64,000 nt of DNA from Coriolopsis trogii (Eukaryota > Basidiomycota > Agaricomycetes > Polyporales > Polyporaceae), in assembly GCA_020543525.1 (NCBI GenBank), contig JAHYIO010000001.1, forward strand, positions 3,596,001-3,660,000. The letters are read 5' to 3'. The notes below the pieces were generated by a model that had not been told where the DNA came from, searched no databases, and saw only the letters and a program-made list of their open reading frames with translations. Every line of letters starts with the position of its first letter. Within the stretch, counting starts at the first letter, position 1. Below, piece after piece: positions 59,367 through 64,000 of the stretch. The position numbers were made by a program, and so were the translations under genes.

Positions 59367-60178
59367 ATGGGTCGCTGGACGCAATATGACGAGGTGCGTG
59401 GCGAATCATCACCGTTGTTCCTTGGTCTGGCTGTGTGCGCGGCGAGGCTCATCTGGTTGTGTCAACAAATCATAGGATTCCTACCGCCTGCCCGAGGGCA
59501 TGAAGCGCGTCGGATACGACTCCGACACAGGCAAGTATTACTTCCGCGACCAGGATGGCTCGCTGTGGGAGGGTGCAGAAGGTGCTGAGTACGGCCAAAT
59601 GACACGAGGTGTGTATGTCGTGTCAATGCATACTGACCCGGGAGGCAAGAGGGTCGTTTGAGCGAGCTCGCTTACGTCTGTTGCAGTCTCGAATGCCCCG
59701 GTTGCTACAGGCGATCGCCCTGCGGAGGATGTCGAGGACGAGGAGGCCGAGATCGGCGTTCATTCGCGTGCCGATGGGTACATGCCTGTCGCCGTTGATG
59801 CCGTGCGTTCAGCTCGCTCACTCCATGAAGTCCGGACTTATTCACTCTTTTGCTCAGGACGGTAACAAGTATCCCCGTCAAACGAGTCGTAATGACAACG
59901 CCTACCGTGTCATGCTTCCCTTCTTCCTCATAATAGCCGTCGTTCTCCTGCTTGTCATCCGCCTCGTGCACTCGAGCACCCCTTCCAGTCCACCACAAGC
60001 CATCCTTTGTCCTGGCACGAGTCAGGCCTACCACGTTTCTCGCGGTGACACTTGTTGGGACCTGGCGCAGTCACGGAGCTGCACCGTGGACGACATCCTT
60101 GCGGTGAACGAGGATCTTCGGTGTGAGGCGCTGCGCCCCGGTCAAGCCATCTGTTTGCCTGCTAAGGTACAGCAGTAA
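59367..60178 (+). CDS. Single-pass membrane protein with extracellular LysM domain (198 aa)
   Basis: Exons 59367-59393, 59476-59608, 59687-59802 and 59858-60178 give 198 residues. Residues 1-105 are hydrophilic: MGRWTQYDEDSYRLPEGMKR, an aromatic/Gly stretch (GYDSDTGKYYFRDQDGSLWE) and an acidic patch. Residues ~110-127 (VMLPFFLIIAVVLLLVIRLV) form one membrane span with no preceding signal peptide, implying type II topology. Residues ~149-194 are a LysM (CBM50) domain: YHVSRGDTCWDLAQSRSCTV, DDILAVNEDLRCEALRPGQA, ICLP, with five cysteines in the luminal part. LysM binds chitin or peptidoglycan GlcNAc. A membrane-tethered LysM with a long cytosolic N-terminus suggests a cell-wall or self-chitin contact role rather than a secreted effector. 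Function is inferred. Confidence 0.85.
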
Positions 60179-60819: not shown

Positions 60820-63423
60820 ATGGCTCTTTCTTGGTACCACGGTTGCCTCGCCCTCGTCGGGCCTCGCATCTCCGATATCGCAAAAACAGAGCTATCTCGT
60901 CTTGAGCAATCTCAACATACCGTACACCTTCTCGACTCAACCTCTACGAGTTTCCACATTACGGTCCTGACCAAAGACGAACTACGCAACCAGGCAGTCA
61001 AGGACGCCCTCCCATCATTGCACACGGTCGACACGCGCCATCTCCACGTCGCAGGCATCGGAGGCAGCCCCAAGCTCGGGGTGTTCTTCGTCGTCATCAT
61101 TTGGGCAGCGGGTCAGACTCTACGCAAGCGCGTCGGCCTGAAGCCCAAACAGCTCCACATCACTCTCTCGCAACGAGACGACCACGGGATCGACAAGGGG
61201 TTTGACTCTGTTCTCCTTGGGTACTCGTCTACGGTTGCTGCCGACGACTTGGAATTCCTCGACCATCTCGCATTCACGTTTCATGCGGAGGGCAACTTTC
61301 ATCGCGCGAGGGTGGTCGCTGCCGATCTGTGCAAGGCGGTGCCGCATTCCGAGCGCGGCTTCTTGAGGCTCGGTGATGCTGCGCTGAAACTTAACCAGCA
61401 TAAGCTTGCAATGCTTGCGTACGGAAGCGCATTCGAGCGATGCTCCGACGCCAAGGCGATGGAGTACTGTCTGAAGAGGATCGAAGAATGCGCACAGTAC
61501 ACCGAGTGGGGATGCACGTTGACGGACTCGGAACGTACACAGTTGGCAGATGCTCCTCACCAGCTGTTCGAGCCTTGGTCGACCACACTCCGCGAGGAGC
61601 TCAGCTCACGAGAGCTGCAATCTGTCCCATCACTTTGCATTCAGCCCCGGGAACCACTCTGGATACCTCCCATCCGTGGTATCGAATTCTACCGCCTTCC
61701 CAGGTTCTTCAGATGGCTGGTCCCTTTCCACGTCGCTCTCATGTCCACTCCCCGTCATGCCGCCGACATTGAGGCACTGTCCTCGCCTCACCTCCGCATC
61801 CGACACGTCCTGACACTGACCGAAGAGTCACCACTCGATCCTGCTTGGTTCTTGGGGAGGAACATCCGAAATACCTTCCTACCGGTGCCCAACTATCGGC
61901 CGCCCACAATTGAGCAGATGGACCTCATCCTGCGCATGCTCGACGATGAGCGCAACACGCCCATCCTCATCCATTGCGGCGGTGGCAAGGGCCGCGCCGG
62001 GACCGTCGCGGCCTGCTACCTTGTCGCATATGGGTTTGCTAAGCCCGACTCGCGGCGCACGGAACCGGCGATGTCGGCCACGGATGCGATTCACGCTCTG
62101 CGCGCCCTCCGGCCGGGAAGCATCGAGACGGAGGAGCAGGAAGCGTTCGTTGCGAAGTACTGCAGCGCAATCTGGAAGCGCCACGCCGTGCTGCCAGACT
62201 TGGTGCCCGAACCGCCTCCCTGCCCGCTGGAAGTCGAAGGAACGATATCGAAGGACGCTGATCTGTTTATGCTGGTCGGACTCCCGGGGTCGGGCAAGAC
62301 GACGTTGTCGCGCATGCTGATGGCGCGAAACCCGCATGCGTGGATGTACATCTCGCAGGACGACACGGGCAGCCGGAGCGCATGCGAGACCGCGATCGGG
62401 AACGTGCGAAGTGGGAAGGTCCTCCTGGACTGCTGCAACGTCTCGCGCGACGGGCGCAAGGCGTGGCTCGAGCTCGCCTCGCACTGGGCGACTTCCCCTG
62501 TCTGCGTGTGGTTTGACTATGCCAGGGAGCTCTGTGTCTCGCGCGCACAGAATCGTGCAGGTCACCCAACGCTACCACCGGGGAACCGAGTACGCAACGC
62601 GATGGACCAAATGCACGGCGCATTCGTGAGGCCGTCTCTCGAAGAGGGCTTCAGGGCTGTCTTCACCATTCGCTCATTCGCTGCGGCCGAGGAACTGGTG
62701 TTACGGCTTTCGCCCCCGGTCACGCTCTTCAAATTTCCCCGTACGGCTCACATCCTGGACTTGGGGTCGGCAACCGACGATGATATTGTTACCGGCACCC
62801 TCCCGCCCATCGTAGACGGGCACGTCGTGATCACCGAGAAGGTCGATGGGGCGAACATGGGCTTCTCGCTCTCCGCGGACCGCACGCAAATTGTGGTGCA
62901 GAACCGGTCGCACTATGTGAACCCAGCGTCGCACGAGCAGTTCCGGAAGCTCGGGGTTTGGATTGAGCGGCACCGCGCGGGCCTCATGAAGATCCTCGAC
63001 CGGGATCCGCTCTTTGCACAGCGATACATTCTGTTTGGGGAATGGGTGGTCGCGACACATTCCATTTCGTACAGTCGACTGCCGGATTGGTTCATGGCGT
63101 TCGACTTGTACGACCGGAGCTTGGAGGGGTGGGCAGACAGGCGGACGCTGGAGGGGCTGGTGGAGGATACGGCCATTCAGCTGGTCCCTGTCATCCACGA
63201 GGGCGATATGGTGAGCGAAGAAGACCTCAGACGGATGGTCCAACAGCCTTCACGTTTCTACGAGGGCCGTGTGGAGGGAGTATACGTGAAGGTGGAGAAG
63301 ATGGGTAGGGTTGTGTCGAGAGGGAAAGTCGTTCGCGCAGACTTCATCGCGGGGAACGAGCATTGGTCCAGGGGCCCTCTACAATTAAACGCTCTCCAGA
63401 GCCTAGACAGCAGCATTGAATAA
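60820..63423 (+). CDS. Multidomain RNA-repair protein: 2H phosphoesterase-TPR-DSP phosphatase-P-loop kinase-RNA ligase (867 aa)
   Basis: One uninterrupted frame, no introns. Residues ~1-135: 2H (LigT-like) domain with paired HxT motifs FHITV (46-48) and LHITL (113-115), the cyclic phosphodiesterase signature. ~145-225: TPR-like helices (AEGNFHRARVVAADLCKAVP, LGDAALKLNQHKLAMLAYGS). ~285-410: dual-specificity-phosphatase fold with P-loop HCGGGKGRAG (Cys386, Arg392) and PVPNYRPPTIEQ. ~480-625: polynucleotide-kinase-like P-loop with Walker A GLPGSGKTT (487-495), ISQDDTGSR, KVLLDCCNVSRDGRK. ~632-867: Rnl2/REL-class nucleotidyltransferase with motif I EKVDGAN (Lys674), III LFGEW, IIIa FMAFDLYD, IV EGVYVKVE and V KVVRADF. 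Predicted together: open 2',3'-cyclic phosphate, remove phosphate, phosphorylate 5'-OH, seal. Domain order and ligase class differ from tRNA ligase Trl1. The start at 60820 is chosen because the 2H domain begins there. Confidence 0.85.
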   Translation: MALSWYHGCLALVGPRISDIAKTELSRLEQSQHTVHLLDSTSTSFHITVLTKDELRNQAVKDALPSLHTVDTRHLHVAGIGGSPKLGVFFVVIIWAAGQTLRKRVGLKPKQLHITLSQRDDHGIDKGFDSVLLGYSSTVAADDLEFLDHLAFTFHAEGNFHRARVVAADLCKAVPHSERGFLRLGDAALKLNQHKLAMLAYGSAFERCSDAKAMEYCLKRIEECAQYTEWGCTLTDSERTQLADAPHQLFEPWSTTLREELSSRELQSVPSLCIQPREPLWIPPIRGIEFYRLPRFFRWLVPFHVALMSTPRHAADIEALSSPHLRIRHVLTLTEESPLDPAWFLGRNIRNTFLPVPNYRPPTIEQMDLILRMLDDERNTPILIHCGGGKGRAGTVAACYLVAYGFAKPDSRRTEPAMSATDAIHALRALRPGSIETEEQEAFVAKYCSAIWKRHAVLPDLVPEPPPCPLEVEGTISKDADLFMLVGLPGSGKTTLSRMLMARNPHAWMYISQDDTGSRSACETAIGNVRSGKVLLDCCNVSRDGRKAWLELASHWATSPVCVWFDYARELCVSRAQNRAGHPTLPPGNRVRNAMDQMHGAFVRPSLEEGFRAVFTIRSFAAAEELVLRLSPPVTLFKFPRTAHILDLGSATDDDIVTGTLPPIVDGHVVITEKVDGANMGFSLSADRTQIVVQNRSHYVNPASHEQFRKLGVWIERHRAGLMKILDRDPLFAQRYILFGEWVVATHSISYSRLPDWFMAFDLYDRSLEGWADRRTLEGLVEDTAIQLVPVIHEGDMVSEEDLRRMVQQPSRFYEGRVEGVYVKVEKMGRVVSRGKVVRADFIAGNEHWSRGPLQLNALQSLDSSIE

Positions 63424-63612: not shown

Positions 63613-64000
63613 ATGTCTACGGAAACTTACCAGCTCTTCTGCATGGGCAACCCCCTCCTCGATATGCAAGTTACGAATGGCGAAGAGCTCCTCAAAAAGT
63701 ACGACCTCAAGTCTAATGATGCCATTCTCGCTGAGGAAAAGCACATGCCGATGTACGATATCTCCGCTTTTGTGTCCTGAGATCCCTCGAATGACTTTTG
63801 CTCTTTAGCTACGGCGAGCTCGTAGAAAAGTACAAGATCACCTATGTGGCCGGTGGTGCAGCGCAGAACGCGGCGCGCGGTGCAGCAGTACGCATTCCCA
63901 GCCATACCAGTGAGGTCCCTGAGACTTACTAACACCCACTCACACGCTCCAGTACGTCCTTCCCCCGCACTCTGTCGTGTACGTCGGCTGCGTCGGCGAC
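63613..64000 (+). CDS. Adenosine kinase, 3' part outside window
   Basis: Phosphorylates adenosine to AMP (PfkB/ribokinase family). ATG 63613: MSTETYQLFCMGNPLLDMQV. Exons 63613-63752, 63809-63887 and from 63953 join in frame, the first through GTACGA..TTTAG completing an Ile codon. The N-terminal adenosine-binding motif GNPLLDMQ, the KYKITYVAGGAAQNAARGAA substrate/lid motif and YVLPPHSVVYVGCVGD match eukaryotic adenosine kinases. The catalytic Asp/anion hole (GAGD) would lie beyond the window. Confidence 0.93.

Follow-up and report, generated by a model that had tools for sequence, protein, structure and literature searches.

A predicted one-chain RNA healing and sealing protein with an Asn/Glu phosphatase active site in Coriolopsis trogii

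One reading frame with a 'Swiss Army Knife' domain set

In a 64,000-nucleotide stretch of the Coriolopsis trogii genome (assembly GCA_020543525.1, contig JAHYIO010000001.1, positions 3,596,001 to 3,660,000 of the forward strand; hereafter the window, whose coordinates we use), a single uninterrupted frame of 867 amino acids at 60820..63423 (+) encodes, from the N to the C terminus, a 2H phosphoesterase, TPR-like helices, a Cys-based phosphatase, a polynucleotide kinase (PNK)-type kinase, and an Rnl2/REL-like ligase core. Judging from sequence and predicted structure, we propose, with a probability of about 0.62, that this protein is an RNA repair enzyme, healing and sealing the ends of cut RNA with a single chain, which would work beside Trl1 and Tpt1 and not replace them.

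Four Pfam profiles, 2H-SAK, PTP-SAK, AAA_33 and RNA_ligase, matched in that order and above their curated cut-offs (68.1, 194.6, 53.1, and 115.9 bits, respectively, each against 27), and an AlphaFold2 model of the whole protein (input of 104 aligned sequences; mean pLDDT 92.8, pTM 0.88) placed the TPR-like helices between the 2H domain and the phosphatase. The domains and order read from the letters by a first-pass annotation are therefore borne out, including the 2H and dual-specificity phosphatase (DSP) segments on whose profile matches that annotation had staked its reading. By sequence, the 2H piece gave three matches among solved chains, at E 0.95 or worse and including no phosphoesterase. 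Residue counts below refer to alignment A1, which holds the window protein and 103 of 120 listed homologues (104 sequences), and to alignment A2, which holds the window protein and 37 sequences hand-picked from the homologue list and a length-limited search. The features are as follows.

60820..63423 (+): predicted gene for a 2H / TPR-like / DSP / PNK / RNA ligase protein of the 'Swiss Army Knife' type (frame, Pfam, homologues, model)
60841..61185 (+): 2H phosphoesterase domain, residues 8-122 (PF22547, E 1.1e-18; fold matches; motif counts)
60955-60963 (+): first HxT motif, residues 46-48
61156-61164 (+): second HxT motif, residues 113-115
61249..61491 (+): TPR-like paired helices, residues 144-224 (AlphaFold2 model; TPR_14 at 16.7 bits, under its cut-off, over residues 146-186)
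61699..62151 (+): Cys-based phosphatase PTP-SAK, residues 294-444 (PF22784, E 1.3e-57; nearest solved fold DUSP23/VHZ)
61891..61893 (+): Asn358, aligned with VHZ Asp65, the IPD-loop acid (phmmer alignment to DUSP23)
61975..61995 (+): signature Cys386-x5-Arg392 (Cys and Arg in 104/104 of A1 and 38/38 of A2)
62125..62127 (+): Glu436, aligned with VHZ Glu134, the Q-loop acid, with Gln440 after it (each in 104/104 and 38/38)
62263..62715 (+): PNK-type 5'-OH kinase domain, about residues 482-632, with P-loop 487-494 and Asp514 (Pfam AAA_33)
62821..63330 (+): Rnl2/REL-like nucleotidyltransferase core, residues 668-837, with K674, E741, D762, E819, and K836 (PF09414, Foldseek, residue counts)

The homologue search returned at least 501 proteins (7994 candidates scored), of which the 120 listed were surveyed for architecture. 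A frame artefact or merged gene was rejected, as the same four Pfam domains were found in 119 of the 120 and 117 covered 94-100% of the query; the exceptions were P0016, which lacks the 2H domain, and P0016, P0018, and P0060, with coverage of 81-89%. The closest named homologue listed was from Dichomitus squalens (75% identity), and those with names are, by genus, mushroom-forming fungi. The phosphatase Cys, kinase Lys, and ligase Lys were each conserved in 104/104 sequences of A1, from which 17 homologues, mostly gene models of unusual length, had been left out (P0009-P0011, P0014-P0019, P0039, P0046, P0060, P0076, P0080, P0099, P0100, and P0111). Regular expressions run over 121 sequences recovered the phosphatase signature, kinase P-loop, and QD[DE] in 120 each, ligase motif I in 118, motifs III and IV in 119 each, motif V in 113, and the first 2H motif, loop Asn, and Q-loop Glu in 116 each, but these patterns are loose and can match elsewhere in the chain, so that the alignment counts are preferred. 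Misses of motif I in P0028 and P0107 reflected pattern strictness, whereas P0111 lacks the stretch after the motif-I lysine and looks like a broken gene model.

The architecture is not new: it is catalogued in Pfam and present in many mushroom-forming fungi. Pfam already holds 'Swiss Army Knife' families for the 2H domain (PF22547) and the phosphatase (PF22784), and the 2H domain recurs across all but one of the listed homologues. The expectation that similar fusions were known from comparative genomics was thus correct, and with two profiles so named, the Pfam curators presumably knew the protein class. The window protein carries the domains of this class, namely 2H-SAK, PTP-SAK with Cys-x5-Arg, kinase, and RNA ligase in one chain. 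The name reportedly stems from a review that rotifer papers cite; a table in the accessible part of PMC7765460 also applies the phrase to a HAD domain. No enzymology of the class was found in a literature search mostly covering papers available without subscription.

A Cys-based phosphatase with an Asn/Glu active site

Sequence matches of the phosphatase were led by DUSP23 and a DSP family protein (25xa), and fold matches by VHZ, yet the DUSP23-like pair of a loop Asp and a Q-loop Glu is not present as such: the Glu is kept, and the Asp is replaced by Asn358. This position was Asn in 101/104 sequences of A1 (Asp in two, a gap in one) and in 36/38 of A2 (Thr in one, a gap in one). According to the accessible text of PMC9038691 and PMC5965843, Glu134 is the main general acid of VHZ and the loop Asp65 a lesser one, and the D63N variant of ShufPTP, an engineered enzyme of archaeal type, lost about 70-fold and retained general-acid catalysis in what is accessible of PMC12848742. 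The phosphatase of these proteins looks like a natural single-acid enzyme that would use the Q-loop Glu. No description of this Asn/Glu pattern was found in the literature searched, and the pattern lends itself to a sharp and cheap mutational test.

Kinase and ligase

The kinase match (AAA_33, PF13671; residues 482-515, E 5.6e-14) was accompanied by a fold resembling the Clostridium thermocellum PNK. The ligase matched RNA_ligase (PF09414; residues 668-837, E 2.7e-33), and its Foldseek matches included a Naegleria RNA ligase, archaeal RNA ligases, and Trypanosoma brucei REL1 (1xdn). Motifs I, III, IIIa, IV, and V of an Rnl2 nucleotidyltransferase core were present with conserved residues, the motif I residues K, D, G, and N being found in 104/104 sequences of A1. 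Together these results uphold the assignment of the ligase to the Rnl2/REL type, although the full-length Rnl2 profile did not match (TIGR02307, 13.9 bits vs 197.15, covering profile positions 28-124 of 326).

Trl1 and Tpt1 elsewhere in the genome

Profile searches of the genome (38.8 Mb, 39 contigs) found the ligase, kinase, and CPD profiles of Trl1 in order on contig C9 (431009 to 433708), a positive outcome for the search for a separate Trl1 that the first-pass annotation had suggested, and the Tpt1 profile in three pieces on contig C30; these matches fall on separate exons or frames and show presence, not intact genes. With both profiles present elsewhere in the genome, the 867-aa protein would be a second RNA-joining system. 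RtcB had no match in the genome; the same search was positive in 9 of 14 control genomes. PF09414 and 2H-SAK each matched once, both times in this gene, and a whole-protein search returned, besides the protein itself, only two weak matches, in the phosphatase part.

Proposed mechanism and alternatives

Under the proposed repair role, a 2',3'-cyclic phosphate would be opened by the 2H domain, the likeliest products being a 2'-phosphate and a free 3'-OH. The phosphatase would strip the 2'-phosphate through a phospho-enzyme on Cys386; Glu436 would be its sole acid, with Asn358 in place of the usual Asp. The kinase would phosphorylate the 5'-OH, and the ligase, adenylated on Lys674, would transfer AMP to the 5'-phosphate and seal it to the unmodified 3'-OH/2'-OH end. 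In this way, thanks to the phosphatase, an Rnl2-type ligase could complete its work with no 2'-phosphate left over for Tpt1. We infer that the phosphatase acts on the 2'-phosphate produced by the 2H domain, and the vicinal OH might assist its removal. A bolder form, which we advance only tentatively and hold to be somewhat less probable than its negation, is that the phosphatase is a 2'-phosphate-specific Cys-type RNA phosphatase working on a single Q-loop Glu, an NAD-free alternative to Tpt1 by which one polypeptide would give clean 3'-5' joints from ribonuclease breaks in mushrooms, oomycetes, and rotifers.

Several points weigh against the proposed repair role. No biochemistry for the proposed reactions was found in the literature. 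Foldseek matches of the 2H domain were mostly 2H proteins, but the best of these was a plant cyclic-nucleotide phosphodiesterase and not CNPase, so that the 2'-phosphate product is unsure. Both HxT motifs were intact in 92/104 sequences of A1 and altered in 12/104 (P0057, P0062, P0063, P0087, P0091, P0101, P0102, and five others), in all of which the residues of the other three catalytic domains are kept; some species may thus obtain the cyclic-phosphate step from elsewhere, and to judge by the HxT motifs the 2H step is not always within this chain. One of the 12, P0108, differs by a Thr to Ser change only, and Ser in place of the motif Thr is used by other 2H enzymes too. Seven of the 12 bear the name Mycena, Roridomyces, or Favolaschia, while six other Mycena proteins (P0044, P0045, P0052, P0054, P0069, and P0095) retain both motifs, and the 2H profile still matched in the four altered sequences re-scanned. 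Since the two acids of Tk-PTP have about equal weight in the accessible part of PMC5965843, Asn358 may, by analogy, lower monoester hydrolysis. The ligase piece had no sequence match among solved chains at E up to 10, and only 31 residues follow the motif-V Lys836, without an Rnl2-type C-terminal domain. In rotifers, some of which carry part of this protein (see below), the desiccation response showed no enrichment of RNA-ligase functions in the accessible portion of one paper.

That short C-terminal end leaves unproven the claim of the first-pass annotation that the protein needs no partner, and with the altered 2H motifs and activities that are predicted only, the claim is not supported as worded. 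Possibly the protein heals ends and adenylates RNA but, as in the editosome of trypanosomes, depends for sealing on a partner that brings the missing C-terminal ligase domain or one for RNA binding; the ligase is indeed a core only, and REL1, which works in a complex, and the Naegleria ligase are among its fold matches. We nevertheless think such a dependence unlikely, given that other domains of the same chain could supply that role and that the only recurring neighbour seen, in the course of work that included no systematic partner search, was an adenosine-kinase-like gene. It is distinctly unlikely that the phosphatase acts on the 5' end, removing a triphosphate or diphosphate as DUSP11 and Mce1 do, so that the ligase could use primary transcripts too. 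Asn358 would suit this, as Mce1, the baculovirus RNA 5'-phosphatase, and DUSP11 are Cys-phosphatases without a WPD motif at that place, according to the accessible text of PMC9038691. However, DUSP23, 25xa, and VHZ head the match lists, from whose displayed rows DUSP11 and Mce1 are absent (which does not exclude them), the counterpart of the main acid of VHZ is invariant in A1 and would be unneeded for a good leaving group, and a 5'-OH kinase adjoins the phosphatase.

A main role as back-up for splicing of tRNA or unfolded-protein-response mRNA, or an action on DNA, appears highly improbable. tRNA splicing has the same end chemistry, and the listed homologues often bear the source name 'ATP dependent DNA ligase'; against this, profiles of Trl1 and Tpt1 are present in the genome, both PF09414 and the leading fold matches of the ligase are RNA ligases, and a 2H cyclic phosphodiesterase (CPDase) domain would have no evident use on DNA.

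Distribution and evolution

The phosphatase-kinase-ligase core was also found in, among others, Kwoniella, Violaceomyces, Elsinoe, Aureobasidium, Phytophthora, Globisporangium, and the bdelloid rotifers Rotaria, Adineta, and Didymodactylos, and so extends to oomycetes and ascomycetes, by a length-limited search that takes proteins of at most 1.75 x 392 aa and in which several short oomycete and ascomycete models appear truncated by eye, so that the proteins of these two groups need not be without a 2H domain. Domains were re-checked in 10 proteins, including eight core proteins. In a tree of 38 core sequences (midpoint-rooted for drawing only), three named rotifer sequences and nine unnamed ones formed one group (support 100/100) beside the mushroom group, with support of only 80/62 for the joint fork; the direction of gene transfer, if any occurred, is not settled. 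P0135 from the tremellomycete Kwoniella mangroviensis paired with Armillaria within the mushrooms (92/80), reflecting transfer, contamination, or weak signal.

Bdelloid proteins appear split into a 2H-TPR part (about 305 aa) and a phosphatase-kinase-ligase part (577 aa), which we rejected as evidence of two genes. The short rotifer-type 2H-TPR proteins stop or diverge just after G-K-Y or G-R-Y in 7 of 10 rows, the reading expected of a splice donor GTAAGTAT or GTAGGTAT; these endings resemble a read-through donor, so one intron-containing rotifer gene is likelier than two genes. The rotifer-type 2H proteins P0251, P0257, P0253, and P0258 probably stem from a full-length protein whose gene model was split. 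In the accessible parts of rotifer papers, genes annotated as RNA ligases, not necessarily those for this protein, were induced by a fungal pathogen and after radiation.

Among prokaryote genomes, 51 pattern matches yielded no confirmed case. Two of 68 pattern matches were distant, stand-alone ligases on viral contigs (L012:4013-4726, 237 aa; L013:3956-4621, 221 aa), with 24-27% identity to the ligase core; by eye only, without a profile search, no phosphatase or kinase was recognised among the open reading frames of either contig.

Neighbouring genes and significance

On the same strand, 189 bases past the stop of the repair gene, lie exons of a PfkB (adenosine-kinase-like) gene, from window position 63613 onward (L011:4113 to about 5397). 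The two genes were joined in one gene model in 4 of the 120 listed homologues (P0039, P0046, P0099, and P0111), for which merged annotation is likelier than true fusion; this arrangement may extend from Polyporales to a single Mycena. Upstream, an open reading frame at 59609-60178 (+) encodes a LysM domain (PF01476, E 3.1e-11) following a hydrophobic stretch.

If the predicted chemistry is true, all steps of an RNA repair line would be united in one protein, in a fungus where Trl1 and Tpt1 occur as well, raising the questions of what cuts this fungus's RNA and whether a Cys-phosphatase can stand in for Tpt1. Such a protein might also serve to ligate, in one pot, RNA fragments that carry cyclic-phosphate ends.

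Comparison with known systems

In architecture, the window protein does not differ from the 'Swiss Army Knife' proteins of PF22547 and PF22784, with which it shares the domain set and of which it is a further orthologue. Fungal Trl1 likewise joins a kinase, a 2H CPDase, and an ATP-using ligase on one chain, but there the order is reversed; here the ligase is Rnl2/REL-like and not of PF09511, and a phosphatase is added. This contrast, drawn in the first-pass annotation, holds, as the Trl1 families PF09511, PF08303, and PF08302 are absent from the 22 families matched by the 867-aa protein. T4 and bacterial Pnkp with Rnl also bring together kinase, phosphatase, and ligase for RNA repair, with a phosphatase that is HAD-type in T4 Pnkp and a metallophosphoesterase in bacterial Pnkp, whereas here it is Cys-based. 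From the atypical DSPs DUSP23/VHZ and Tk-PTP, finally, the phosphatase differs in that their loop Asp is Asn in nearly all of its relatives in A1.
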